This document shows positions 11,229 through 44,307 of a DNA stretch of 51,686 nt, piece after piece; position 1 is the first letter of the stretch; each line of letters starts with the position of its first letter. The position numbers and the translations under genes are program-made. The DNA comes from a virus. The notes below the pieces were generated by a model that saw nothing but the letters and a program-made list of their open reading frames with translations, was not told the origin of the DNA and made no database searches. Location of the stretch: positions 1 through 51,686 of the IMG/VR virus record IMGVR_UViG_3300025108_000075; one strand, 5' to 3'.

Positions 11229-11236
11229 TATTTATG
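11229..11236 (-). promoter_or_regulatory. T4-type late promoter (CATAAATA)
   Basis: Minus-strand CATAAATA, one base off the T4 late consensus. It overlaps the 3' end of the protease gene and lies 21 bases ahead of the ATG of the coiled-coil gene. Confidence 0.55.
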
Positions 11237-13835
11237 TCATATCAGGTAGGTCCATGCGATGACGACCTACAACACTATTCACTCTCGGATACATTCCGCC
11301 AGCAACTGGTCTTTTACTTGAGTGTTTGATTCGATGTTCAAATGGATGACTGTCTTGATCTTGTGGATCAAAGTATGCTCGTAGATGTGTAGTGCCTGTT
11401 AATTCTGTATACTTAAAACCTCCATTGGCACTATTGCCACTAGAAATAAAACAGTTTCCAAAAGAAATCTCGTTAGATAAAGATGCGCCACCTGCACTAG
11501 GTACATTTGACCAACTAAATCCAGTGCCACCAGATGCTATACCTCTACATTTATTTGATGCTTTTGATAATAGTAGTGATTTAGTTTGATTGGGGGTTGG
11601 CCAAGCATCGTTATACCAGAAGTATTCTTCCATGATACATGCTGCCTTTCCTACTACAGTTGGAGTAGCACAACTTGTACCAGAGAACATTCCCCACTTA
11701 TAAGTTCCATATGTGGAACTAGGATAAGAAGTCCATGTGTTAGCACCAAGACCTACAATATCAATCCCTGGTCCTCTATTTGTATATCCATCTAAACCAG
11801 GATATTCTTCAGAGTTGTAACCAGCAGCAACATCAATATTACTCTCTACACCATGTGGACCATATGACATAAATGGATACCATGTGGTGGTACTAGATGT
11901 GCTGTTGGAATTAGAACTAGCGTAAGAAATATTGATAACAGGGTAATTTGGACCAGCATCAACATCTAGACTCGTAGCAGTTTGACTATTCTCCTTATTA
12001 AAAGTTCCTCCATTATTACCAGCTGCATTGATACAAACAATGCCATTACTCCAAGCACTGTCTAATGCAGATTTTAAAGAACTGTAATCAAATTGCGATG
12101 GCATTACAACCATCCACGAATAATTTGTAGATGTTGGATCATACACTTTGAAAGGTATGATGTTCTCTTTTACAAATTCGGAATAATCTGATCCCCATCC
12201 ACCACCTGCAGATGTAGTAAACACGACATTACCTGCTTCAGCACCCTGACCAGTTACACTACCATCATTAATATTATTACCACCATCGGCATCTCTAATT
12301 AAGAATGGATGACCTGATGCATTGACATTGAAAGTCAAAACATCTCCATCTTTAATATTAATAGCTGGATTGTTTCCAGTAACCGATCCGTTTCTATCAG
12401 TGCCACTAAAAGCATATAGTCCACTTCCACCAAAAGATACACTAATGCTGTAGTTATTTGAAGTTCCATCACCAACACCAACAGTGATGGTATTCTTCAT
12501 ATTTGAATGATATTGACACTGATACCAATAAGGACTGTTTGCAGAGGTTGAACTACCTGGTCTAGTTACCGTTGTTCCATCTGCTTTATTAATTTGAGAT
12601 ACGCTGTCAATAGGAATTCCAACTTTTCTATCACGTAAGTATTGATATTCTGCAATTAGAATAGTTGGATTAGGAACACCTGTCTCTGGATTATTTGGTT
12701 TTGCATTATGCCAATCAATAACAGCTTGAATACACTCTGTAGGACTGTCACCAGTTACCAAATACATTGCATAAAGATTTGCTTTCTTTGCAAATCCACA
12801 AATAGTTCCACCAGCGGCACTCAATACACCCATGCCATGATCAGTTAATCCACTATTGCCACCGTCGTTAGTTGTAACTTGGTTATTAGCATCTGCTTCT
12901 AGATCAGGCCAATCCATCGGAATGAATCTAGATGATGTTCTAGTAGTCCAAGTAACAGTACCATTTTCAGCACCTGCATTATCTACGCTACCGTCAGTGA
13001 TGTTGCTACCACCATCAGCATCTCTAATTAAGAATGGATGACCAGAAGCAGTTACATTGAAGATTAAAACATCTCCTTCTTGGATAGAAATAGGTGGATT
13101 GCTACCATTGATAGCACCATTTCTATCATTACCAACTAAAGTATAGATTCCACTTCCACCAAAACTTACAGTGAAAGTGTAGGTATTTCTAGTTCCATCA
13201 GCAGGATTTACTGTGATGGTATTCTTCATATTTGAATGATACTGACACTGATACCAATATGGATCTACTCTTGCATGAGAGTCGTCTTCAGAAGATAACT
13301 TTTGAAAATCTGGATGTGTGTCATGTGTGCCTGTATTACTTGCCCAATTTCCACCACTACCAGATTCTAGAGTAACGATGTCAACATGCTTTCCAGTCCA
13401 TCTAGACTTATATGTGTATGCCCCTTCAGTAGAGAAACTATCATCATCTCTTCCTACAGTAAAAACCTCTCCACCACCGTCTAATGGTACAAGTTGATTA
13501 CTGTCATAAAGGAACTGTACAGGAGCGTTGTCTTCTCCATTACCAGTAGGAGATCTATAAGATGAACTTGTACTAGATGTATACCACTTCGTCATCTCCT
13601 CTACTGATGGAGCAACGGAAGCCTCAAAATCTTCTGGAATTTCTGTTGCCTGAACTACACTAGAATGTGAACGGAATGTTGTTACATAATCCTCTTCAAC
13701 ATTCATGACGATTAGATTGGGCATACTGCCCAGCATATTCCACCAATCCGCTTCCGTGTCGGCATCAAAACTATCTACGAATTCTTGCTTGTCAGTTTCT
13801 TCTACAAGAATTACATCCAATAATACCTTCGCCAT
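11232..13835 (-). CDS. Subtilisin-like (S8) serine protease with two inserted cupredoxin modules
   Basis: 867 residues. S8 signatures are visible in order: strand HVDIVTLESG (150-159), DHGMG with His333, oxyanion-type NAAGNN (Asn607), and GTSCATP with Ser721. The residue aligning with the catalytic Asp is Glu157 (ESG instead of DSG/DTG). Two modules of ~106 residues interrupt this fold at 193-298 and 436-541. Each begins YWYQCQYHSNM, the Cys-His-Met copper-ligand strand of amicyanin-type cupredoxins, and later has GHPF with the other His (His266, His509). Normal cupredoxins have the His first and the C..H..M strand last. No signal peptide is seen. It sits one base after the 215-residue fibre gene in the late cluster, so it is probably a virion component or maturation protease. 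Activity and copper binding are inferred. Confidence 0.85.
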   Translation of the reverse strand: MAKVLLDVILVEETDKQEFVDSFDADTEADWWNMLGSMPNLIVMNVEEDYVTTFRSHSSVVQATEIPEDFEASVAPSVEEMTKWYTSSTSSSYRSPTGNGEDNAPVQFLYDSNQLVPLDGGGEVFTVGRDDDSFSTEGAYTYKSRWTGKHVDIVTLESGSGGNWASNTGTHDTHPDFQKLSSEDDSHARVDPYWYQCQYHSNMKNTITVNPADGTRNTYTFTVSFGGSGIYTLVGNDRNGAINGSNPPISIQEGDVLIFNVTASGHPFLIRDADGGSNITDGSVDNAGAENGTVTWTTRTSSRFIPMDWPDLEADANNQVTTNDGGNSGLTDHGMGVLSAAGGTICGFAKKANLYAMYLVTGDSPTECIQAVIDWHNAKPNNPETGVPNPTILIAEYQYLRDRKVGIPIDSVSQINKADGTTVTRPGSSTSANSPYWYQCQYHSNMKNTITVGVGDGTSNNYSISVSFGGSGLYAFSGTDRNGSVTGNNPAINIKDGDVLTFNVNASGHPFLIRDADGGNNINDGSVTGQGAEAGNVVFTTSAGGGWGSDYSEFVKENIIPFKVYDPTSTNYSWMVVMPSQFDYSSLKSALDSAWSNGIVCINAAGNNGGTFNKENSQTATSLDVDAGPNYPVINISYASSNSNSTSSTTTWYPFMSYGPHGVESNIDVAAGYNSEEYPGLDGYTNRGPGIDIVGLGANTWTSYPSSTYGTYKWGMFSGTSCATPTVVGKAACIMEEYFWYNDAWPTPNQTKSLLLSKASNKCRGIASGGTGFSWSNVPSAGGASLSNEISFGNCFISSGNSANGGFKYTELTGTTHLRAYFDPQDQDSHPFEHRIKHSSKRPVAGGMYPRVNSVVGRHRMDLPDMT
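12213..12530 (-). repeat. Cupredoxin module 2 inside the protease (residues 436-541)
   Basis: Second copy of the inserted module, with Cys440, His443, Met446 first and His509 later. Its opening ~50 bases and the stretch coding GHPFLIRDADGG are nearly identical in nucleotide sequence to module 1. Confidence 0.8.
12942..13259 (-). repeat. Cupredoxin module 1 inside the protease (residues 193-298)
   Basis: First copy of the inserted module, with Cys197, His200, Met203 first and His266 later. It lies between the degenerate catalytic-Asp region and the catalytic-His region of the protease. Confidence 0.8.
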
Positions 13836-13836
13836 T

Positions 13837-14484
13837 TTATGCCTCTAGTTGTGTTACCGTTAGCTCTACGTTGATACCTTGTGTAGATCCACTTTTATTC
13901 ACAACTTTCAAATACACGTTTGTACTTGGAGTACCGTCATCATTATATCCGATAAATGCTGGAGTAAACAATACAGTTTCGGCAGATGATTGTGTAATCA
14001 CTTCTGCAATTACGCCACTACCAGGAGCAGGATCTTGGGTGATAACTCTACTAGCATCGGCAGTTCTAGTAGCAGAACTAACATACAAAGTTACCCATGC
14101 TGGTTGAGATACCTCAACTTTGTATAATGCATATCCTTTGTATGCAGTAATCGTAATATTTTCTGCTGTACCATCTGAATGAGAACCACTGGTGGAAGCA
14201 TTGAAAGTTTGTCTGCTTCCTAGACTAGTACCTCCTCCTCCGCCGCCACCACCGCCACCGCCAGCTGCGGTGATAACACCATTAGCATCAATGTTAACTG
14301 TAGAACCATCTACCTTAACACCGCCTAATACTGTGGTACTTGCTGTGGGTAATTGGAATGTATCCAGAGTTCCGCCACTGGATCTCCAACTGGTTCCATT
14401 CCAGATCCAGGTTAACCCACCATCGGTGTGTGTGAATGAACCGTCTGTGGGTTGTCCAGCGGTATCTGGGAATAAGATTGCCAT
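13837..14484 (-). CDS. Short tail-fibre protein with poly-Gly hinge
   Basis: 215 residues. Residues 1-38 (MAILFPDTAGQPTDG, TWIWNGTSWRSS) form a small N-terminal motif common in cyanophage fibres. Residues 44-74 hold one LPTAS...LGGVKV..g.tVniDanGvIt repeat, a fibre-shaft type. Residues 75-85 are eleven Gly in a row. Residues 105-215 form a beta-rich domain (YALYKVEVS, PGSGVIAEV, LTVTQLEA) that is clearly homologous to the C-terminus of the 1007-residue fibre. The shared end suggests a common receptor-binding or trimer-capping function. The Shine-Dalgarno site is GGAGAG, and an AATAAATA late-promoter-like box lies upstream at 14508-14515. The downstream protease starts one base after its stop. 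Confidence 0.8.
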   Translation of the reverse strand: MAILFPDTAGQPTDGSFTHTDGGLTWIWNGTSWRSSGGTLDTFQLPTASTTVLGGVKVDGSTVNIDANGVITAAGGGGGGGGGGGTSLGSRQTFNASTSGSHSDGTAENITITAYKGYALYKVEVSQPAWVTLYVSSATRTADASRVITQDPAPGSGVIAEVITQSSAETVLFTPAFIGYNDDGTPSTNVYLKVVNKSGSTQGINVELTVTQLEA

Positions 14485-16241: not shown

Positions 16242-18958
16242 CAGGTAGTCCTCGCTAGGAATAGCATACCTTCACTAGAATTATTAGACACCCCATCCAA
16301 ACCAGTTTGTTGTGTTTGATATGCTGCTTGGATAACCTCATAAATTTCAGATCCACTTACTGTAACTGTATCACCTGGTCTGAATTCTGTTAGTCCTGGA
16401 GTTGTTACTACTTGCAGCAATACAAAATCATCTGGTAGATAATATGGGCAAGGAATCATTCTTTGTGAAATTGGAATAGTTTTGATAGGTTTGTAGTAAT
16501 CTGCAGAGGCATCCACTGATATTCCCTGGTTAGTATCGTATGTACTATTTCTGTAATAGATAGCAGTCGCATTATTAGTTCCCTCTCTTATATTATTATA
16601 ATAGTGGTCGTACACATGTTCATTAGCAGTGCTATCCCCCCTCATATATCCAAAATAAGCATTCCTTGCTTGAGAATAATCGCTAATAGGTTCGCGATTT
16701 GGGGTCCAATAAGAACCTGTCCCTTGAACATAACCAGGCACATATGTTGTTAAGTCTATGTATTGTGTTGTTGCCTTATATTGAGTATATCCTGACAAGA
16801 ATACATGATCTAAATCAAATGTACCATTACCATATCCACTACCTGTATGAATACTAAATGTAGCAAAAGGTACAATTTTTGTATTAATTATTTGAGTAAA
16901 TTGAATAACTGCAAAACTTGTATCTTGAGGTGCTTGAGCTCTAAATGTTCTAATCTGCATTGGATATGCAGTTGGAGTTGAAGATGTACTCAAAGTCTGA
17001 ACAGTTGCACTATCAACGATATTAAAATTTTGCCTATCCAATCCGTTATAACCAGTGAACGCTCCCCATTCATCATTAGCTGTGGTTAAAGTTGAAGATG
17101 TTCCTTTACGGTTCAAAAACTCCCATCCAGTACCAGATTGCATTTTTAAAGTCCAAGCGGCGCTGGCACTACCCTGTAGATAAAAAGAATAAAATGTATT
17201 TCCGTATTTTTTAGTGGCGTCGTTTTCTGCATTAAGAATAGCCCAAGCACCCACACCAGATTTTTGGTAGAAATTAGATCCACCACCTAACGTAGTTGTC
17301 TTAATACTAGCAATGCCATCGTATGCATTGTTATATGATTCTGGAGTAGTAACACCAAATCTAATATCACCAGTTGTGGCATTACCACCAACTAGTTCTC
17401 CTGGAATTGTAAATTCTTCATCATCAGACCATCCAGTTCCAATACTATGGATGGTGACATTTTTTATAGTACCATCATTCCATCCATATCTCCAAACTCT
17501 CAACTTAAGTTCAGATCTTCCTCCAGATGCAGGTACGGTATACTTGTAATATCCATCAGCCAATACTTGAGATGGATATGAAACATTAATATAACTAGGA
17601 AGAAGAGTGATTATTCCTTTTGCAGATGAATTAGTTTCACTGCAATAGATATATTTTTTAGTACCATCTTCTCCAGGTCTTCCCAAAAACGATGGATTTA
17701 ATGCTGATGAAGGATAAAGGGGTTCTGATTCTGATTGCTCATATGATATAGTGTCCCAAAGTAAATCATTACCAGGAACACAACTAATGTTTGTAGTATT
17801 GACGCGATAACTAACGCTAGTCTGGTATGGGGGTGTATATCCATATGTTGGATCATTATAAACAATCCTTTGATCATTATCAAATGAATCTACATCTCTA
17901 CATACAGTAATATTTGTTGAATTTGCAGCATTATTATTAAACTGAAGTTTGTCACCATGGTAAACTTCAATGTTAGGATTGACATAATCAGATGCCTGTT
18001 GTGGTTCTTGTATGAAAACTACAGGAAACGTTTTAGATGTTGATGAAAGAGCAGTAAGATCAATTGCAATACCATTAGCAGCATTAGCTGCTGATGTTGC
18101 AAGTTTAAAACTATCTCTATCAACTTTAATTACATACACTAAACTATTAGGTAGTAAATTAGTTCCTAACGAATATGCTGGATCAGTTTCTCCTGGAAGA
18201 TATCGGACAGGATCACCAGTATTCAAACCATGGCGCGGGTAATACTTGATTGTGTCAGTGGCTAACTCTATTTGCCCTGGGTCGGAGTATGGTGCATACG
18301 AATCGATGCCAACACGTCTTAAAAGACGATAGTCGGTATCAGTAGGTGTGCTAACTGTAATAGTTCCGATCATCCCTTCATGACCAGTAACACTACACTG
18401 ATAGTAATATGTACCAGTAGCTGTAGGTGTGTAAGAAACAGTAGCAGTGCCTTCACCAGTGGCAGCAGGGTTTGAAACACTAGCACCACCATCAGATACC
18501 CTGATGTACATTGGGTGACCTCCACTCAAAGCACTGTTATCAAAGGTGATTGTGTCACCAACATAAATTTCGATACTAGGATCTGATGCAGCAGCAAATG
18601 AAGAAGTTCTATCTGTTCCTGAAATAATATAATCAGTACCGTTTCCACCATTGGTAACCATGCTAATTGTGGTTGGTGCTAGTCCTTCAATCACATCATA
18701 GATATTAATTTGAGGAGAACCCCAGTTACGATTTGCTGGATAATCAGCATTATTAGCATCTTTAAAAGAGGCTATAGACCCACCTAAAGTTACACTTTCT
18801 CCACCAGGAGCCACACAAATTTGAGGAACGCCAGTTACAGATGATCCTGCATTCATTCCTAGATTACCCAATGCAGTTTCAAAGGCATCCATTAAATTTT
18901 GTTTTGTCCATCCAGTGTTGCCATTGTTTACATCAATGACTGATTTTAAAACTGACAT
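16241..18958 (-). CDS. Virion structural protein with intact cupredoxin domain (905 residues)
   Basis: Residues 1-35 (WTKQNLMDAFETALGNLGMN) form a short helical N-terminus. Residues 108-202 are a cupredoxin (plastocyanin-like) domain in normal order: SIEIYVGDTITF, then GGHPMYIR with His148, then TGTYYYQCSVTGHEGM with Cys188, His193 and Met196. All four type-1 copper ligands are present. A second, degraded domain of the same kind follows (NIEVYHGDKLQFNN, about residues 329-343). The C-terminal half is a large beta-rich region with many Tyr and Trp and a TGW-type segment (IHSIGTGWSDDEEFTI). It follows the 1007-residue fibre by four bases. The role is structural by context; copper binding or use of the fold as a rigid adhesion module are both possible. 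Confidence 0.85.
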   Translation of the reverse strand: MSVLKSVIDVNNGNTGWTKQNLMDAFETALGNLGMNAGSSVTGVPQICVAPGGESVTLGGSIASFKDANNADYPANRNWGSPQINIYDVIEGLAPTTISMVTNGGNGTDYIISGTDRTSSFAAASDPSIEIYVGDTITFDNSALSGGHPMYIRVSDGGASVSNPAATGEGTATVSYTPTATGTYYYQCSVTGHEGMIGTITVSTPTDTDYRLLRRVGIDSYAPYSDPGQIELATDTIKYYPRHGLNTGDPVRYLPGETDPAYSLGTNLLPNSLVYVIKVDRDSFKLATSAANAANGIAIDLTALSSTSKTFPVVFIQEPQQASDYVNPNIEVYHGDKLQFNNNAANSTNITVCRDVDSFDNDQRIVYNDPTYGYTPPYQTSVSYRVNTTNISCVPGNDLLWDTISYEQSESEPLYPSSALNPSFLGRPGEDGTKKYIYCSETNSSAKGIITLLPSYINVSYPSQVLADGYYKYTVPASGGRSELKLRVWRYGWNDGTIKNVTIHSIGTGWSDDEEFTIPGELVGGNATTGDIRFGVTTPESYNNAYDGIASIKTTTLGGGSNFYQKSGVGAWAILNAENDATKKYGNTFYSFYLQGSASAAWTLKMQSGTGWEFLNRKGTSSTLTTANDEWGAFTGYNGLDRQNFNIVDSATVQTLSTSSTPTAYPMQIRTFRAQAPQDTSFAVIQFTQIINTKIVPFATFSIHTGSGYGNGTFDLDHVFLSGYTQYKATTQYIDLTTYVPGYVQGTGSYWTPNREPISDYSQARNAYFGYMRGDSTANEHVYDHYYNNIREGTNNATAIYYRNSTYDTNQGISVDASADYYKPIKTIPISQRMIPCPYYLPDDFVLLQVVTTPGLTEFRPGDTVTVSGSEIYEVIQAAYQTQQTGLDGVSNNSSEGMLFLARTT

Positions 18959-32235: not shown

Positions 32236-35200
32236 CTAGAGAGTTGTCCCTAGACCGATAGTCCTGATGAACTGACCAGCAGTATGTGCTTCTGCTGTTG
32301 TGTTGTCAACACCTCTTGTAACACCAATAAGACGATCAGATAATTTAGATGTGTAGGTTACAAGCTCTTTACCGACAAGTAGTTTACCACTGTCAGGGAA
32401 ATTAGTGGTATCTGGAATGTAGATGACAATTGAATTTGCTAGCAGTGGTGCATCTAGATAAGACATCAACTCTTGAATAGATGGAATTCCAGGATTAAAT
32501 AGAGTTCCATTAGTTGTCAAGGAGGTATTATTTAATGTCATATTTTCCATCCATGTATCAACACCTTCGCTGATACCATTGAATTGTGTGTATGTCAATT
32601 CAAGTTGCTCTAGAGTAATTCCAGATACATTTGCATAACCAACATCTAGATACAAGTAATCAATAAATGAAGCTACAGTACCTCCCAATTTACCTTGTGT
32701 GTAGAATTGTGGATAAGTAACTGGATTTTCATCCAAAGCAATAACACCAGAATTGAAATATCTGGTCTTATCCACTCGGAATGATTCAAATCCAATATCC
32801 TCTGCTTCAAGGAACACTCTGACGAAAGTTGGTTGCTCAATAGCAGCTGGTGATTGTGTTGCTACAACATATTGAATATGTGTAATGATATCTTGCTCGA
32901 ATGGGAATCCCATTCCAATTTCAGGAGTAACTAAATCCATTCTCCTGCCAATCAATCTCGCAGATCCAAGAGGATTAGGAGATTGTATAACAGCAACATG
33001 CTCAACCAAGTTACGTCGATATAGATCAATAACAGAGGATGTAGTTTGAATCGTTGCATTCAACCCTTCACCTTGACCACCAAAAATAGTTCTAACTAAA
33101 GAAAACTCTGGATGATTATTTTCACGAAGAATATCATATCCTCTAGAAATAACAACTCTTGGAGGAGCAGTATATCCAGAACCACCATCTACTAAAATGA
33201 TGTCAATGATTTGACCACCATATACTATAACTTGTGCTTTAGCACCGCCACCCTCACCATTCGTAGGAATGAAGTTCAATACTGGTGGGCTATTATAGTT
33301 ATAGGCAGTAGGATTGATAAGAATACTATTTTGGAAGAAATACGTTAGTTCCCTTCTATTCCAATTCAAAGAGGTTACCTTACCAGTATCAATGGTTGTT
33401 GTAACTGACAGACCTTCACCTAATACATCTCCGTTATAATCAGAAGCAGCAACTTTAGCAAAGAAGTTAGCAGAAGCATTACCACCTGGACGATAATCAG
33501 TTGTTTTAGCAAAAAGTGGAGAACTAATAATATTACGATATTCACTTTCACCATCAATCATGATCTTATCTCCTCTACGGAGAGTTGGATGCTCTTTTAG
33601 AATCTCGCCACGGTAGTCGTAACTATCAAAAGAATCATTAGTAGGCAAGAAAGGAATATAGTTTGCTTCCACACGATTAAGAATACGTTCTCCAGCAACA
33701 TTTGTTGTATATGCAATAGAGAAGTCTGTGAAACTAATTGTCAAAGGATCTCCATCAAATCTATCAAAAGTGACATCAGAGCCAGCAACAAAATCAATAT
33801 TTTGTGATTTCAATATAGCAATCCATTGATCTCCAGTTCCCTTTTGGATACTCATAAGTTCACCCCAAACCCTACCTCCTTGTACAACACTAGTTTTATC
33901 ACTAGTGTTTAAGACATACCAAGAAGAGATGGTATCGTATGTACCTGCACCATCAAAAGTTACAGTTGCTCTGTTATAGAAAGCATCTTGTTCATAATTA
34001 AAGATATTGAGAGTAGATTGATAGTTCTTACCATACAAACGAATAATATCTACTCTTGCACAAGTATAAGATCCATCTGCCTGTTCTGAATACTCCAATG
34101 GTTCCATAAAAGTAATTGAAGCTCCATTGATCTTGTATGACAGATCTTGTTGTTGGAGAACACCATCTACATAAACATATGCATATAATGTACTATCAAT
34201 AGTTCTTACATTATTATTTGAGTCATAGATTAGGTATTGATTATTTTGATTATAAGGAACTATTCTCTTGTCGATACCAAGTCTTTCGTATAGACCTACG
34301 CCAAATCCATAAAAATATGTTTCATTCTGCAGTTCTTGTGGAAAAGCATCTGAATCATAAAGATCCTTGTAGTTTTTAGGTGCTTTGACAAAAGCGATAC
34401 GATCTGTTTTGTTTGGACTCGAAAATCTTCTGATCTCATAAGAACCTTGCTGTAATACTCCATCGAGATACACAAACAAGTCTTCATTGACCTGTGTCTT
34501 CACGACACTACCATCGTCCCAATTCAAATCAAAGATTCTAGTTCTACCGTCGAACGAATCTGCAATATTTTTTAAATTTTTCAGATAACGTGCATTATCC
34601 GTATCTTCTCTAAACTTGAATGCTCTAATATATGCACTCTGTGGGGGAACAAGCTGATCTTCAGTAACTCTTGGACCAAGTGGCGGTTCAAAGAAGAAAA
34701 GTTGGTTACCTACAACTTTAAAAGAATATCCTGGTCTTTGTGCAATACCATCAATGGTCATTAAAATTTCTTGATCATTGTATGGTGTGTATGCAGTACC
34801 AGTTGCAGCATCAGTAATAGTAAACTGTTTGTTACCAATTTTCAAACCAGTCTGTGGATCATATCTACCGTCAAAAGCAGGAGACAACTTAAGTTCTCTT
34901 ACTCTGGTAAGAGTTTCGTCAAAATCGGATACAGAAACTGATCCTTCACCTCTAATAACTCTAGAGTCTTTTACTTTAATTACCTGTTGCTGAATAGTTC
35001 TCTTTGTAGATAGAGAGGATACTGCAAGTGGAGGACCAACCAAATACATGGTGGACTTAAATGCCTTCTGATCAGATGGCATATCAGATACACCTTCAGA
35101 TTCCACGTAGACTTCACCAAACATCTTGAATCCAGCTGGATGTGTGGTATCTTTAATTACATCACGCCACTGGTTGATTGGTGTTCTAGATCTAACAACA

Positions 35201-38200
35201 TAAGAATAATCTTGATAGAAATTAGAATCGTGAATTCTTTGATTGCTAGAACTTACCTTTCCTCTGTCGGAAGTAAATCTACCAATTGTCTTTTCTCTAG
35301 TAACAATGTTAGGGATAAACGAAGATCTACTAATTGTCTTGATACGAGCAGTTTTCTTCCTACTCTTTCCAATGATAGTCTGTCCTTCTTTGAAAACACC
35401 GACAACATCTTCCAAACGTAGAATATTAGATCCTACTCTCCATCCATTTGGAGCAACTATGCCTTGAGCAACAATAATACCATTTACTTTCTGTTCAATA
35501 GTTTCACCAGGTCTAAATGCGTCTAACTCAAAGGTATCGAGAATAAAAACATCAGGTGAATAGTAATTTGATCTAATCGTACTATCGCTATGGAATCCCG
35601 ATCCATTTCTTACAAAATTAACGTTTTGTGGACGACCAATATTATCAGACACAAAGAACAACTTATTGTCTGTTTCAATAATTTCCAGTTTTGGTGTGGT
35701 GGTATAATTACCAGGATCGGTAATTCTGACTTGAGTGATGATACCATCCTTTACATCAGCAATTGCTTTGAGACCACTTCCCAGACCAGAAGCAACAACA
35801 ACTTCTGGTTTAGAATATCCTTGACCTGGAGTGACAATATCAATTGAAATAATTTTATTAGTAGATATACTCCTGACAGCATTAACGACTGCTTTGTATC
35901 CATCTGCAGGGACTACACCTTTAATAATTGGCAACTTATCATATTCAGATCCAAGATTGTCTAGCTTGATAGAATGAATCTTACCAACTGACTTACCTGT
36001 ATATCTAATATCTCCAGTTCCATCGTATTGGGGAACATCGGAAAGTTTGTAGACAACTTTTTTGTCTGTAGTGTACGCAACTTCTTTTCTACCTGACAAA
36101 GGGTCATCAACAATACGAAGATAAGATCCTTCAGTATCAGTTGTAGAAGAAGTCAAGAAATAGTAGTAACTTGTGAAGTTAACATCTTTTCTTGTTTGTT
36201 CTCCAATGTTTGCACCATATCCAAGTCTAATTCTCACAAATGCACCAGCATTACCAGGTTCAGTCAAACCAACTTCTTTTTCTTCGGTAAAGACATTAAA
36301 GTTTGGACTAGTTGAGATATCAAGGTAAGAGTTCAACATCGAAGGATGACTTACATCAAACTTGTAGAAATAATACTTCTGAATATCTACAATAGGATTA
36401 GTGAGGAAATTTGTATTATCTGTAGAGAATAGTAGTTTATCACGAATATCATTTACAGAACCGACAGTAACAATTTTTTGTGGATTACTGGTATCAACAA
36501 TTGATGATACTGTGGTCAAAGCAACAGGGCTAGTTGCATTGTAATCCCAGTTGACAATTAGTTTTTTAGTTTCATTGTCATAAGAAACAACTACTGGTGC
36601 ATTAACACCAGTTCCAATTCTTGTACCAGCTGCAAATCTGTAATTCGGCAAATAAGATACTAAATCTTTATTATTAGAATGATTAACTTTGATAGTTCCT
36701 TCTTGAGCTCTTGCTACTGAAATATTTTTATTATCTGTATCTACAGCAGTAATTTTAACGATCTCGTTACCAATAGATACAAGATCATCAACTGATGCTG
36801 CAAAAGTATTAGTAACGTTTACATCTGTTCTATCAACACCAAAACCAACAAAATCAACGTTAATTAGTGGACCAGCAGCACTTGGTGCAGGATACACTGT
36901 GATAGTTCCACGAGCTTCTGGATGAGTTACACAGACATATTGATATACACCAGGAACTGTAGGTACAAAGACAATAGGATCTGTAACAGATCCACTGTTA
37001 GTAACACCACCAGCAACTGTATAATCGATAGTAAATTGAGCACGACCATCATCTTTGAGTCCCAACTCTATGTCAGATACAACATGCACTGAATGACCAG
37101 GCATTGGTTGTAAAGTAAGAGTAGATCCTACACGTATTTCATAATTTGGGTTTCGCTCTCCTTGATCATCTTCAAATCTGTATTGAGGTTTGAGACTACC
37201 TGGAGGGCTGTATACATCAACACTGGTAATTGCAACACCACTGATAGTATCATCAGTAGTTAAGTCTTCACCTTCAGTATCGGCAACAAAGTAAGTGAAA
37301 GCAAAATTGTCATCATCTTTAGAAATATAGATGAGATTAGTACCACCAGCATCATTCTGGAAGAATCCTCCGACATCGCCCAGTGCTGTTACTACAGTTG
37401 GATAATCTGCTTCAGCAACGAAAAATCTTTTTTGTGCATAAGACTCAACTTCTGTTTGATTCAAATACACCATCGATAGAATCGGGGAGATGTCTGAATC
37501 AGCTGCATCTACTTTAGCAATAGCAGATGGATCAATTGTTAGGATATCGTCTGCTTTATAATTTGCACCAGCACTAGTAATAGTAATATTACCAATATTA
37601 CCACTGTTATCAAAATTAGCAGTGTCTACACTTACAGATGCCTTTGCTGCTACTACATCAGATCTCGACAAAGCAGAATTAGCAAATACAAGAGGGACAT
37701 CAGTATACTCTCCAGAAATGTAGTCTTTACCTAAACCAAGTACAGTAGATTCGCCAACGCCAGTATCATCAACCTTTGCACGATATTCATTTGGAAGTAA
37801 AGTGATCTCTTGAAACTTTTTCTTCGTCACATAGTAAGTTGTCTCTGTAGTGGCAGGATCTGGATCTACTGTGATATTAATAATATCTCCAGTGCCAAAG
37901 TCATGATTTTCAGTTGTTTCTAGAATAGCAATAGAATCATCAACATCAGTAATATTAATATTTCTACTCAACTGATTAATAATTACAATCTCTGTTCCTG
38001 CAGTATTACCTAGGTCAGAACTTTTAAGAATTACTTCACCTTCATTATAATCGAGGTAATCGGCAAAATCACCACTTGTAACCTTTAGTCGAACTGAATT
38101 TTGGTCAACAGTTTGATTTAGGATTTCTCCAGTGGCAATCTCTGTTGTTGGATCCTCAAATAGAACTAAAGCAAGAGTTGCTCCTAAAGTGTAAGAACTG

Positions 38201-41200
38201 TTTTGAGATAGCAGTAAATTGATTACTTGAGTAGAAGAATTGATTTCATATCCAGCCTCAAAGGATCCAGTGATATTTCTGACACCAATTTCATTCTCTT
38301 CAGAAATGTCTCTAATAATTTCACCAGTTGCACCTGTAGTCTCTTGAGTGATAATATCACCCTCAAATGCAAAGAAACTAGAAAGAGATGTCAATAAAGC
38401 TGCTTTGGTTTCTTTAGATTCAATACTAGAGACAGTCTTGCCAAATGTAGATGCAACAATGCCAGCAGCACCAGATCCACCAGTGCCACTGTCATCTACG
38501 TATATTCTTGATCCAATTTGGAATGTAGGTTGAGAATCTTCAATGCTTACTGTATTAACAAATCCTTTACTTACAGTATCAATATACGCAACTTCTCCAG
38601 AACCATTCTTCAACGTTCCTGGAATGAACAAACGTTCGGATGTAGTAGGAATAGATCTTTGAGTTACTTTACTTTCGTAGTTGGACCTAACTGGTAAAGA
38701 ATAAAAGTTATCTCCAAGGATATAAGGATATACAGGAGTATTACTAGCATCAATAGTTACAAAGTATGCATATGTACCTTGTGGATATTCTGGTGTGACG
38801 CAGAATCTACCATTGTTAACATCAAGGCGAGTCTTACCTGTATCAACAGTAGCAATCCATTCATAGTCATCAACGAAGGTGCCCATGTCATATGGAGCAT
38901 CAACAGGACCATCAGTTCTTGAATTCTTAAGCTGATATCCACTATTCATCCTCGCAATAGAGGATTGATTCGATAGCGGGTTGCTAAAACCGTAAGGACC
39001 GTAAATAGGATTACCATCATAGGCATAACCTAGGATAGGCGAGTGTGTTAAAGTAGAAGTCTCTTGGAATTGAGTTGGCGTTAAATTGTCCCCTAGTCTA
39101 AAACGAAGGCGTTTGGGGTTTGCAACCACTCCATAGTAAAACTCATTTTCTATGAGGTCTTTTATTGCAAGACCACCATTATCATCAATGAAATTAGAAT
39201 TATTAAAAAATCGGTCTTTTACCCAACGGTAAATTGTGGCAGTTGCAGTAGCAGGATTATTTCTTGCCTCTTCTACAATTTCTACTCGTACATTCTCTTG
39301 AGTGTAGAATTTACCGCCATCAACTTTTTCAAATCCAGTAATCTTACCTTTGGTATCAACAGTCGCTCTAAATTCTCCAAATCTACCTTTTCCTGCCAAA
39401 TCGGTAATAATAACAACTGGAGGTGCTGAATAATATTCTCCAGCGTTAATTAGACGAATACTAGTAATTTCACCAGAAGTTACAATAGCTTCTGCTACAC
39501 CATTTCTTCCACTGACAATTTCTACTAGAGGGTCTGCTGTGAAATTCTTATTGAGACGAGTAAATACAGAGTTTACAGTATCACCGACTAAAGTTGACAA
39601 AGCTAGTTGTTCTTCGCCATTAATAAGGACAAAAGGAGGTTTTGTATATCCAGAACCTCTGGAGGTCAATGTGTAAGATTGGATGTTGCCATATGCAATT
39701 TGATCCTCGCTCTTATATCCAAAAGCAATACTACCATCTACAAATACACCAATATCTCTAAATGGCGTTTTATATACTTCAGTAGTTGTACTGGTAGATT
39801 TTGGTATCAGCTTGAGTTGATTAGCATCAACTAGATTGGGTTGATCCTGACCAGTAAGAATAGGTGTGGATGGATATGAAGATGTTGCAATATAGTAATA
39901 CTGACCATCTTGATAGACGGCACTAACATCAGCCAAATATTTTTGGAGTGGAAGACCTACACCAGGATTAAGAGGAACCGAAGCAACAGCACCAGTGGTA
40001 TTTACTTTCCACCTTACAGATCTAGTTGATTCGTCATAAATGATTGTATTTCTAGTTTCAAATCCAGGTTTAGAGATCTGGATCTTATCTCCCTTCTGGG
40101 AGTAAGGATATACTTGATCTGGAGAAAGTTTTGTTAGAATGCCATATAGAAGCAAACTAACATCGTCACTTCTTACATTAGAGTAACTAGTTACAATGTC
40201 ACCGACATTATGAATTCTCGTGACAGTTCCACGTTCTTTGATAATAAACTGTCTAGCAGTCTTTCCTTCATACTCAATGATCTCGCCATTGATCTGTACA
40301 AACCCTTCTTCGGAACTCCAACCTAAAGTAGAGTCTACAGTGATTGTATCGTTAGTTGTAAGAGAGGTCCCCAAAACCCTGTCCAGCACTGTCTTTTGGG
40401 GGATGTTAAAATCGCCATTTACAGAAACAGGATCGATAATTAAATTATAAAGACCATAGTCTCCTACTTTACCAATTTGGATTATATTCTCTACATTAGC
40501 AGATGCATATGACGATCCAATAGAATTCTTATCCTCTTGCTGGATAATAGTCTTACCAATCAATTTATTGGCATCACCACTTAAAACGATTGCTTGTATT
40601 GCAAATACAGCAGACCAATCAGATTCCGATACTTTTACGGTGCTATCTTTTGGAAAGTATGTAGTTGGAATATCATCAGCTCTCTTTGATACAATAGTAT
40701 TGAAGATGAATCTGATAGATTTGTTGCCACCTTTAGTTTTGTAAAAATCTCCAATGTTCTTGATCAGGAGTCTCTTATCTACATCATCCTTCAAGTATGC
40801 TTCTGGAAAGTTAACTAGGTACTCTCGCTCAAATGCCCTTACAAAGGCATACAAGAACAAATGACTTAAGTTATGTACATCTTCACCAACCAAGTGGTCT
40901 ACTGCTGATGTAGACACAAATGTGGATTCATTATGCAGGTCTCCGAGAATGGTTGTACCACTCACTCCTCTAGAGACATCTAAAAATTCTGTAGCTGTTC
41001 TCTCTTTATAGAAACAGATTTCTGTTCCAACTCTAATATATCCGTTCTTCTCTGGAAATGAACTAGCATCAGCGACTACCAAAGTCGTGGAGGATGCATT
41101 TACAGTCAAAGCAACTGTAGTAGATTCTTTCAGTAAATTTTTCTCATAAAAATCGACATCACGATATTTCGTAATGTTGCTGATGATATCAAGAGGTTGA

Positions 41201-41316
41201 CCGACTGATTCCTGTTGTCGATAGTATGCTTCTAAAATACTCGAAAAGTTTTCGTATTCAGAAACAATAAACCCAGGAAGTTGGTCTTCAATTAGAGCCG
41301 AAATCTGTGTACTCAT
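32236..41316 (-). CDS. Giant baseplate protein in the gp7 position (3026 residues)
   Basis: It lies between gp6 (stop four bases before its ATG) and gp8, where T4 has gp7 (1032 residues). Visible modules: an N-terminal helical region (IEDQLPGFIVSEYENF) with a G.EI.fY..R.......RG.sGT unit (about 90-130), repeated near 330, 1490 and at the C-terminus (GKELVTYTSKLSDRLIGVTR); a YHYH-type domain near 755-870 (ILGYAYDGNPIYGPYG); a cupredoxin-like domain near 1385-1475 (PGHSVHVV, then YVCVTHPEA with Ala in place of Met); GSGYT..PP modules near 560, 1834 and 2717; and SFDGRTRIFDL near 2250. The inferred role is baseplate wedge core with added surface modules. Homology to T4 gp7 is positional; I cannot show it by sequence. 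Confidence 0.85.
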   Translation of the reverse strand: MSTQISALIEDQLPGFIVSEYENFSSILEAYYRQQESVGQPLDIISNITKYRDVDFYEKNLLKESTTVALTVNASSTTLVVADASSFPEKNGYIRVGTEICFYKERTATEFLDVSRGVSGTTILGDLHNESTFVSTSAVDHLVGEDVHNLSHLFLYAFVRAFEREYLVNFPEAYLKDDVDKRLLIKNIGDFYKTKGGNKSIRFIFNTIVSKRADDIPTTYFPKDSTVKVSESDWSAVFAIQAIVLSGDANKLIGKTIIQQEDKNSIGSSYASANVENIIQIGKVGDYGLYNLIIDPVSVNGDFNIPQKTVLDRVLGTSLTTNDTITVDSTLGWSSEEGFVQINGEIIEYEGKTARQFIIKERGTVTRIHNVGDIVTSYSNVRSDDVSLLLYGILTKLSPDQVYPYSQKGDKIQISKPGFETRNTIIYDESTRSVRWKVNTTGAVASVPLNPGVGLPLQKYLADVSAVYQDGQYYYIATSSYPSTPILTGQDQPNLVDANQLKLIPKSTSTTTEVYKTPFRDIGVFVDGSIAFGYKSEDQIAYGNIQSYTLTSRGSGYTKPPFVLINGEEQLALSTLVGDTVNSVFTRLNKNFTADPLVEIVSGRNGVAEAIVTSGEITSIRLINAGEYYSAPPVVIITDLAGKGRFGEFRATVDTKGKITGFEKVDGGKFYTQENVRVEIVEEARNNPATATATIYRWVKDRFFNNSNFIDDNGGLAIKDLIENEFYYGVVANPKRLRFRLGDNLTPTQFQETSTLTHSPILGYAYDGNPIYGPYGFSNPLSNQSSIARMNSGYQLKNSRTDGPVDAPYDMGTFVDDYEWIATVDTGKTRLDVNNGRFCVTPEYPQGTYAYFVTIDASNTPVYPYILGDNFYSLPVRSNYESKVTQRSIPTTSERLFIPGTLKNGSGEVAYIDTVSKGFVNTVSIEDSQPTFQIGSRIYVDDSGTGGSGAAGIVASTFGKTVSSIESKETKAALLTSLSSFFAFEGDIITQETTGATGEIIRDISEENEIGVRNITGSFEAGYEINSSTQVINLLLSQNSSYTLGATLALVLFEDPTTEIATGEILNQTVDQNSVRLKVTSGDFADYLDYNEGEVILKSSDLGNTAGTEIVIINQLSRNINITDVDDSIAILETTENHDFGTGDIINITVDPDPATTETTYYVTKKKFQEITLLPNEYRAKVDDTGVGESTVLGLGKDYISGEYTDVPLVFANSALSRSDVVAAKASVSVDTANFDNSGNIGNITITSAGANYKADDILTIDPSAIAKVDAADSDISPILSMVYLNQTEVESYAQKRFFVAEADYPTVVTALGDVGGFFQNDAGGTNLIYISKDDDNFAFTYFVADTEGEDLTTDDTISGVAITSVDVYSPPGSLKPQYRFEDDQGERNPNYEIRVGSTLTLQPMPGHSVHVVSDIELGLKDDGRAQFTIDYTVAGGVTNSGSVTDPIVFVPTVPGVYQYVCVTHPEARGTITVYPAPSAAGPLINVDFVGFGVDRTDVNVTNTFAASVDDLVSIGNEIVKITAVDTDNKNISVARAQEGTIKVNHSNNKDLVSYLPNYRFAAGTRIGTGVNAPVVVSYDNETKKLIVNWDYNATSPVALTTVSSIVDTSNPQKIVTVGSVNDIRDKLLFSTDNTNFLTNPIVDIQKYYFYKFDVSHPSMLNSYLDISTSPNFNVFTEEKEVGLTEPGNAGAFVRIRLGYGANIGEQTRKDVNFTSYYYFLTSSTTDTEGSYLRIVDDPLSGRKEVAYTTDKKVVYKLSDVPQYDGTGDIRYTGKSVGKIHSIKLDNLGSEYDKLPIIKGVVPADGYKAVVNAVRSISTNKIISIDIVTPGQGYSKPEVVVASGLGSGLKAIADVKDGIITQVRITDPGNYTTTPKLEIIETDNKLFFVSDNIGRPQNVNFVRNGSGFHSDSTIRSNYYSPDVFILDTFELDAFRPGETIEQKVNGIIVAQGIVAPNGWRVGSNILRLEDVVGVFKEGQTIIGKSRKKTARIKTISRSSFIPNIVTREKTIGRFTSDRGKVSSSNQRIHDSNFYQDYSYVVRSRTPINQWRDVIKDTTHPAGFKMFGEVYVESEGVSDMPSDQKAFKSTMYLVGPPLAVSSLSTKRTIQQQVIKVKDSRVIRGEGSVSVSDFDETLTRVRELKLSPAFDGRYDPQTGLKIGNKQFTITDAATGTAYTPYNDQEILMTIDGIAQRPGYSFKVVGNQLFFFEPPLGPRVTEDQLVPPQSAYIRAFKFREDTDNARYLKNLKNIADSFDGRTRIFDLNWDDGSVVKTQVNEDLFVYLDGVLQQGSYEIRRFSSPNKTDRIAFVKAPKNYKDLYDSDAFPQELQNETYFYGFGVGLYERLGIDKRIVPYNQNNQYLIYDSNNNVRTIDSTLYAYVYVDGVLQQQDLSYKINGASITFMEPLEYSEQADGSYTCARVDIIRLYGKNYQSTLNIFNYEQDAFYNRATVTFDGAGTYDTISSWYVLNTSDKTSVVQGGRVWGELMSIQKGTGDQWIAILKSQNIDFVAGSDVTFDRFDGDPLTISFTDFSIAYTTNVAGERILNRVEANYIPFLPTNDSFDSYDYRGEILKEHPTLRRGDKIMIDGESEYRNIISSPLFAKTTDYRPGGNASANFFAKVAASDYNGDVLGEGLSVTTTIDTGKVTSLNWNRRELTYFFQNSILINPTAYNYNSPPVLNFIPTNGEGGGAKAQVIVYGGQIIDIILVDGGSGYTAPPRVVISRGYDILRENNHPEFSLVRTIFGGQGEGLNATIQTTSSVIDLYRRNLVEHVAVIQSPNPLGSARLIGRRMDLVTPEIGMGFPFEQDIITHIQYVVATQSPAAIEQPTFVRVFLEAEDIGFESFRVDKTRYFNSGVIALDENPVTYPQFYTQGKLGGTVASFIDYLYLDVGYANVSGITLEQLELTYTQFNGISEGVDTWMENMTLNNTSLTTNGTLFNPGIPSIQELMSYLDAPLLANSIVIYIPDTTNFPDSGKLLVGKELVTYTSKLSDRLIGVTRGVDNTTAEAHTAGQFIRTIGLGTTL

Positions 41317-43532: not shown

Positions 43533-43661
43533 TTATTTATGGTCCTTTTTCTTATCTTCTGTCTTGCTTTTTTTCAAAAGTTTGTCAGATTCGATTTGAG
43601 TGATAAGAGTCATTCCTGATTTGATAAAATCTTTGCTCTTATCAGTTGGTGAATTACCCAT
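43533..43661 (-). CDS. 42-residue small protein upstream of gp25
   Basis: Read directly: ATG at 43659-43661, stop TAA at 43533-43535. The protein starts MGNSPTDKSKDFIKSGMTLI, continues TQIESDKLLKKSKTEDKKK and ends in a Lys-rich tail. A strong Shine-Dalgarno site (AGGAGA, 43669-43674) lies eight bases before the ATG, inside the 3' end of the 217-residue gene, and the two genes overlap by eight bases. The site and the clean helical, charged composition argue for a real gene. The function is unknown. The position next to gp25/gp6 and the shared transcript suggest a small baseplate assembly helper. Confidence 0.65.
   Translation of the reverse strand: MGNSPTDKSKDFIKSGMTLITQIESDKLLKKSKTEDKKKDHK
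43534..43541 (-). promoter_or_regulatory. T4-type late promoter-like box before gp25 (CATAAATA)
   Basis: Minus-strand CATAAATA overlapping the stop of the 42-residue gene, 20 bases ahead of the gp25 GTG. One mismatch to the late consensus. Confidence 0.55.
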
Positions 43662-44307
43662 TTTCTTTCTCCTGTTGTGTTTGCCAAAAATAATCGTCAG
43701 TGTCTCCTAGGCGTCCCCAGTCGATTCCTGCCTCTACTTGGTATTCTATGGTAGATACTTTAAAGTCAGGGAATTGAGGTTCCTGTGGGGTGATAGAGAG
43801 GTCATACAGACGCATCCTATTATTAGGATACAATGCATACTGACCATTCTCTAATGCAATGCAATTATGTGATTTATGCTCTTGAGGCACTTCACTCACA
43901 TTATTATCTATCACATCTGGATTTGCATGATAGTTATCTAATGTAAACAAGTATTGACCTTTCATCAAACCATGGTCTCTTGTAAAGACCTCACAGTCCA
44001 TTGATGTTACAAATCCTTTGTTCATACATGCAACACCATAATCCATACAATTCCAAAATTGTAGGTTTTCCAGACTCATATCAACATCTGGTGTTTTAGG
44101 TGATCTTACAAATGCACTGATAGGTAGCTTGTCATACATTGCTCCATATGTAGGCAAGTATGTCTCAAAGTAAAAAGCACGCCCAGGTATGCTTTTAGCA
44201 CATACCCAGACGCCCTCTACAAACTCCCCATGCCCATCTTGATGATCTCGTAAGTATTCCCTACGAACCCACACTTTCTCTGCAGGAAGATTGCAAATTA
44301 AATTCAT
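43654..44307 (-). CDS. Hypothetical protein (217 residues) in baseplate cluster
   Basis: The ATG (44305-44307) overlaps the TGA of the 49-residue gene by two bases, so translation is coupled. The protein is a mixed alpha/beta globular one with several Trp and Cys (VWVCAKSIPGRAFYFETYLP, FWNCMDYGVACMNKGFVTS) and an acidic middle (NYHANPDVIDNNVSEVP). No known catalytic motif or membrane segment is visible. YALYPNNRMRLYDLSITPQEP has the look of a loop often seen in cyanophage conserved proteins of this locus, but I cannot name a family. It sits in the transcript started by the sigma70-like promoter at 44477-44505 and may also be read by late transcription. Confidence 0.75.
   Translation of the reverse strand: MNLICNLPAEKVWVRREYLRDHQDGHGEFVEGVWVCAKSIPGRAFYFETYLPTYGAMYDKLPISAFVRSPKTPDVDMSLENLQFWNCMDYGVACMNKGFVTSMDCEVFTRDHGLMKGQYLFTLDNYHANPDVIDNNVSEVPQEHKSHNCIALENGQYALYPNNRMRLYDLSITPQEPQFPDFKVSTIEYQVEAGIDWGRLGDTDDYFWQTQQEKENG

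Follow-up and report, generated by a model that had tools for sequence, protein, structure and literature searches.

The conclusion that a naturally occurring, circularly permuted cupredoxin is inserted in an S8-like (subtilase) protein of a cyanophage is well supported. The protein has 867 residues and carries two such modules. Its gene lies in a stretch of 51,686 nucleotides, analyzed whole and referred to here as the window, which comes from a marine cyanomyophage that is a relative of Synechococcus phage S-CAM1; the region at 41–51 kb matches S-CAM1 over 69% with ~78% identity. The modules comprise ~106 residues each, and both begin with YWYQCQYHSNM and contain GHPF further on. At the DNA level they form a 300-nt direct repeat with 78% identity. 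Their coordinates and motifs had been given correctly in a first-pass annotation made from the sequence. The features considered here are as follows.

11232–13835, minus strand: gene of the S8-like (subtilase) protein, 867 aa, carrying both inserts (ORF; family alignment; PHROG 15006 'tail fiber protein')
13626–13835, minus strand: N-terminal ~70 aa with a b-a-a-b-a-b pattern (seen only in the secondary structure of a model with low confidence)
13365–13367, minus strand: Glu157, at the position of the subtilisin catalytic Asp32 (alignment with BPN' and phage S8 proteins)
12942–13259, minus strand: module 1, permuted cupredoxin, aa 193–298, ligands Cys197, His200, Met203 and His266 (sequence, rotation test, models)
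12837–12839, minus strand: His333, catalytic His position (same alignment)
12213–12530, minus strand: module 2, permuted cupredoxin, aa 436–541, ligands Cys440, His443, Met446 and His509 (sequence, rotation test, full-length model)
12015–12017, minus strand: Asn607, oxyanion Asn position (same alignment)
11673–11675, minus strand: Ser721, nucleophile position, in SGTSCATP (same alignment)
18350–18673, minus strand: canonical-order cupredoxin of a 905-aa protein, aa 96–203, comparison domain (sequence)

The protein may be located in the virion or its tail, as judged solely from the gene neighborhood and the PHROG and GenBank labels. Baseplate-wedge genes are present in the same window, and the S-CAM1 orthologue, which has 751 residues and one module, is labeled 'putative proximal tail fiber' in GenBank. 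The N-terminal ~70 residues are a possible I9-type propeptide, going by the pattern in the model.

A gene of the PHROG 3704 'ferredoxin' family (43654–44307) adjoins the baseplate-wedge genes. The gene adjoining that of the protease (13837–14484) encodes a 215-residue protein whose homologues in the sequences that we designate L078 (2–727) and L079 (2–805) carry a canonical cupredoxin, which the window protein has lost or never gained. A 3026-residue homologue of large virion proteins (32236–41316) contains a degenerate canonical-order cupredoxin at about residues 1381–1475, in which the Cys and His are kept and the Met position is lost (HPEARG).

Strand Order of the Modules

The order of the strands was assessed with an HMM built from eight canonical-order cyanophage cupredoxins, against which rotations of each module were scored at every second residue. 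Upon rotation the score increased from 67.2 to 88.1 bits for module 1, from 76.8 to 97.6 bits for module 2, and from 67.4 to 84.5 bits for the module of S-CAM1. These gains of ~21, ~21, and ~17 bits were obtained by moving the first 18–24 residues to the end. As controls, canonical domains had their maximum at zero rotation, and 150 shuffled sequences all scored below 10 bits. The modules thus lack the canonical order, in which the Cys strand is second to last, and represent a permuted variant rather than an ordinary cupredoxin. An assembly artefact is ruled out, as independent contigs show the same order, and so do seven S-CAM1 records.

At the Pfam gathering score, neither the native nor the rotated order of the module is matched by PF00127, and the homology of the module to cupredoxins rests on the phage-specific HMM. 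The canonical-order cupredoxin that had been noted in the 905-residue protein is recognized by PF00127 (residues 127–202, E = 3.6e-5). Profile searches of the PDB with canonical phage cupredoxin domains gave matches of the rusticyanin, plastocyanin, auracyanin, and amicyanin type.

Predicted Fold

AlphaFold2 predicted the structure of the module alone, from 19 sequences, with a pLDDT of 93.2 and a pTM of 0.86. The model is a cupredoxin β-sandwich that opens with the Cys strand (E5–9) followed by strand E16–22, and its structural matches are a permuted azurin, a laccase domain, and rusticyanin, as well as models in BFVD. With this confident prediction, each module would fold on its own as a β-sandwich whose adjacent ends suit insertion into a loop. 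Both modules are again confident when the full-length protein is modeled, and the protease is mostly below a pLDDT of 50; because values outside the modules are this low, the model cannot place them relative to the active site.

The top refined PDB match found by VIA-align was entry 5YT7, 'circularly permutated Azurin 3', with a modest Z of 5.3 and an rmsd of 2.9 over 80 residues (model 11–111 on 3–119); the remaining matches had Z values of at most 5.3. The 5YT7 chain begins with GHSALMKGTLTLK at the copper loop of azurin; the last strand comes next and leads into the original N terminus, and the chain ends with MFFCTF. Alignments of ordinary laccase and rusticyanin domains start only at about residue 23 of the model, and the same holds for the full-length model. 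In BFVD, the match to the S-CAM1 protein spans the module from end to end, with 111 columns and a TMq of 0.96. Most matches to canonical cyanophage cupredoxins covered ~85–93 columns with a TMq of 0.57–0.70, which is expected if the first ~22 residues of the module are out of order. Foldseek returned no match for the module in the PDB at E ≤ 0.001. This result and the modest VIA-align Z values are partly explained by the handicap that permuted proteins pose to sequential aligners.

The rotation test, the model of the isolated module, and the match to 5YT7 together bear out the circular permutation proposed in the first-pass annotation. That proposal had the last strand becoming the first, but the part that moved comprises the Cys strand and the final strand together with the copper loop, two strands in all. 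Since the moved segment starts at the Cys strand, it is the loop preceding this strand that holds the new ends.

The Protease Core and Its Insertion Sites

His333, Asn607, and Ser721 align with His64, Asn155, and Ser221 of BPN', as expected of the S8 family; the catalytic Asp, however, is replaced by Glu. Glu occupies this position in all nine clade members aligned (9/9), and Asp is present in four other cyanophage S8 proteins. Besides Glu157 of the window protein, Glu is found in L178, L189, L194, L196, L102, L143, and L206, all with His, Asn, and Ser kept. Most members of this Glu-type clade also have Glu as the first residue of the SLGG motif. Because the Asp32 position is Glu throughout the clade, catalysis in this family may be altered or weak, as far as can be read from the alignment. 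PF00082 matches the S-CAM1 orthologue with an E-value of 3.2e-10 and gives no match at E ≤ 1 for the 867-residue protein itself, probably due to the inserts.

Site 1, which holds the first module, lies between the catalytic acid and the His. Site 2 lies downstream of the motif aligned to SLGG, in an extended loop after this strand of the substrate pocket. Both sites were located by relatives in which they are empty, which supports the insertion of the modules as protease loops proposed in the first-pass annotation. Relatives were collected with the C-terminal domain of the protease as a query. Naked relatives at ~50% identity have both sites empty; in L178 the corresponding segments read HPDFDDPDNTGTTRVIPMDW and TINRPGASWGTNF.

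The search for other proteases with the same insert, suggested as a check, was successful: the permuted order is present in S-CAM1 and in dozens of IMG/VR contigs. Module 1 occurs in permuted order in S-CAM1 and in every full-length close relative from IMG/VR, and module 2 is found in some of them and missing from others. Basal permuted forms occupy site 1 in L186 (HPDFQGNTTGAVAGTYYYVC...IVWTTPTSRLIPMNW) and L188 (GQAVGTYVYQC...VVWNTSTGTRFIPMDW), and both keep the canonical linker ahead of the Cys strand. Another branch of the same S8 clade (L079–L097 and others) has a canonical-order cupredoxin at site 2, and this insert is present or absent between near-identical relatives (L081 versus L102). 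In L078 and L140–L142, three tandem cupredoxins precede an uninterrupted protease at its N terminus. The second of these N-terminal domains has lost most ligands in L140, L141, and L142 (YSAM, HSSV, and DS-I), and its neighbors keep theirs.

Later scans did not find the permuted module beyond this S8 clade, and a scan of bacterial and archaeal genomes gave no confirmed relatives of the module. L275–L286 and L259–L274 looked permuted in tblastn and turned out to be canonical or fragmentary domains; the insert of AG-345-F15 was likewise rejected, being of canonical order. Cupredoxins occupy a variety of positions in cyanophage S8 and fibre-like proteins. They are commonly shuffled among the structural-type proteins of cyanophages, many copies scoring below the Pfam cut-off.

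Evolutionary History

A tree was calculated for 97 modules, with the permuted ones rotated back to canonical order. The permuted modules form one clade (support 99/96), within which module 1 and module 2 fall on two sides of one branch with modest support. The sequences are consistent with module 2 being a copy of module 1 that would have arisen by one duplication. Among canonical domains, those closest to the permuted ones come second in a tandem pair carried by the S8 proteins L117 and L118 (98/94).

On a tree of the C-terminal domain of the protease, several changes have to be assumed for the presence of module 2, in part between very similar cores. Module 2 has therefore been repeatedly lost, regained, or exchanged in the same loop; besides losses, recombination between phages could account for its pattern of presence and absence. 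The same tree places some naked proteases, with weak support, within the carriers of module 1. In L016 and L018, the first residues of modules 1 and 2 match within each protein (TAHPNM/TAHPNM and TAHSNM/TAHSNM), hinting at possible gene conversion between the modules.

The permuted unit equals a single period of a tandem array if the cut is placed in the loop that precedes the Cys strand. Its internal joint is common to basal and derived permuted forms, reading NPADGTRNTY here and SASDGTRNNY or SASDGTRNTY in the basal forms. On these two grounds, the sequences suggest that the unit may derive from a tandem cupredoxin array; no specific source array was traced.

Copper Ligands and the Role of the Modules

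Both modules contain the His...Cys-His-Met ligand set, as the first-pass annotation had stated, and none of the four ligands is missing from any of the 23 permuted modules compared. They are also present in about 96–97% of 74 canonical modules. L186 and L188 keep all four at about 40–49% identity. When 12 permuted modules that are 38–49% identical to L186 were compared, the 26 invariant columns included all four ligand positions (4/4), for which the chance is ~0.002. The dN/dS ratio between modules is 0.10–0.37, and the permuted modules are under purifying selection.

The modules are most likely accessory β-sandwich inserts with a conserved type-1-like site. As a whole, we put the probability at roughly 0.6 that a shuffled cupredoxin was permuted, became inserted in the loops of an S8-like protein, and serves as accessory modules of a virion-associated protein. 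A cupredoxin of the kind widely shuffled among cyanophage structural-type proteins would have entered the loop between the acid and the His already permuted, the unit being cut before the Cys strand and its old C terminus joined to its old N terminus through a short linker. One copy would then have reached the second loop, which follows the substrate-strand motif; close relatives would since have lost, regained, or exchanged it. The permuted unit may have been one period of a tandem array of the kind that exists in relatives. Copper would be bound in vivo at the His-Cys-His-Met site, where it may stabilize the domain or serve surface binding rather than gate catalysis, and the modules would be exposed accessory or adhesive parts of the S8 protein.

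It is possible, though rather unlikely, that the modules are purely structural decoration, that is, Ig-like β-sandwich spacers or adhesins that have lost copper binding in vivo and keep the ligands for packing or by descent. Interchangeable β-sandwich domains are frequent in phage proteins. The many positions at which cupredoxins occur in cyanophage S8 and fibre-like proteins fit this explanation, as does the second domain of L140–L142, which persists despite the loss of its ligands. Against it stand the complete ligand sets of all permuted modules, including L186 and L188, and the presence of every ligand among the invariant columns.

The sequence features also allow a protease gated by copper or redox state, as envisaged in the first-pass annotation, in which copper loading or the redox state of both modules would tune the S8 site, for example on release into seawater. 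The invariant ligands and the two positions, one between the catalytic acid and His and the other after the substrate-pocket strand, would suit such a role. We nevertheless consider it improbable. Relatives with a very similar protease core lack module 2 and naked proteases have neither module, so catalysis appears to be independent of the modules, which argues that they are accessory; moreover, the acid residue is Glu and the protease is only putative. Similarly little credence is given to the notion that a naturally permuted type-1 copper domain, mobile as an in-frame insert among protease loops, lets a virion-borne Glu-His-Ser S8 protease respond to copper or redox state upon exit from the host.

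That there is no permutation at all is very improbable. Under this reading the segments would be protease loops like any other, or one module would be completed by the Cys strand of the other. Such a strand swap is formally possible with two modules in one protein, but single-module proteins such as that of S-CAM1 exist, the isolated module is predicted to fold confidently, and relatives without inserts show clean loops, which together largely refute this reading.

Comparison with Known Systems

To our knowledge, circular permutation of blue-copper proteins is known only as engineering, as in 5YT7. A full-text search of open-licence PMC papers found no natural circularly permuted blue-copper protein, which does not prove its absence, and searches of the same literature gave nothing relevant on cupredoxins in phages. 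The modules form a natural permuted cupredoxin family, most of whose history can still be read from relatives with empty sites or with canonical inserts at the same site, from tandem arrays, from basal forms with the old linker, and from a later, variable duplicate. With this family it becomes testable how domain permutation and insertion arise in nature and whether the type-1 copper site tolerates them.

Rusticyanin, plastocyanin, auracyanin, and amicyanin (PF00127) share the H, C, H, and M ligands and the β-sandwich with the modules; they differ in strand order and are free-standing electron carriers. The canonical cyanophage cupredoxins, found in the S8 proteins of S-H9-1, S-CAM4, and P-HM1, the proximal tail fibre of P-SSM2, and the 905-residue protein of the window, are homologous to the modules, have the same four ligands, and often reside in S8 proteins, but their strand order is canonical and they are terminal or otherwise placed. 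S8 relatives of the L079 type belong to the same Glu-type clade and carry a cupredoxin in the same second loop, where it is also present or absent, but their insert is canonical and their first site is empty. In the engineered azurin 5YT7, as in the modules, the C terminus is joined to the N terminus and the new ends are near the copper loop. Unlike the phage modules, which are cut before the Cys strand, this laboratory-made protein has its cut within the copper loop, past the Cys, and it has no host domain.
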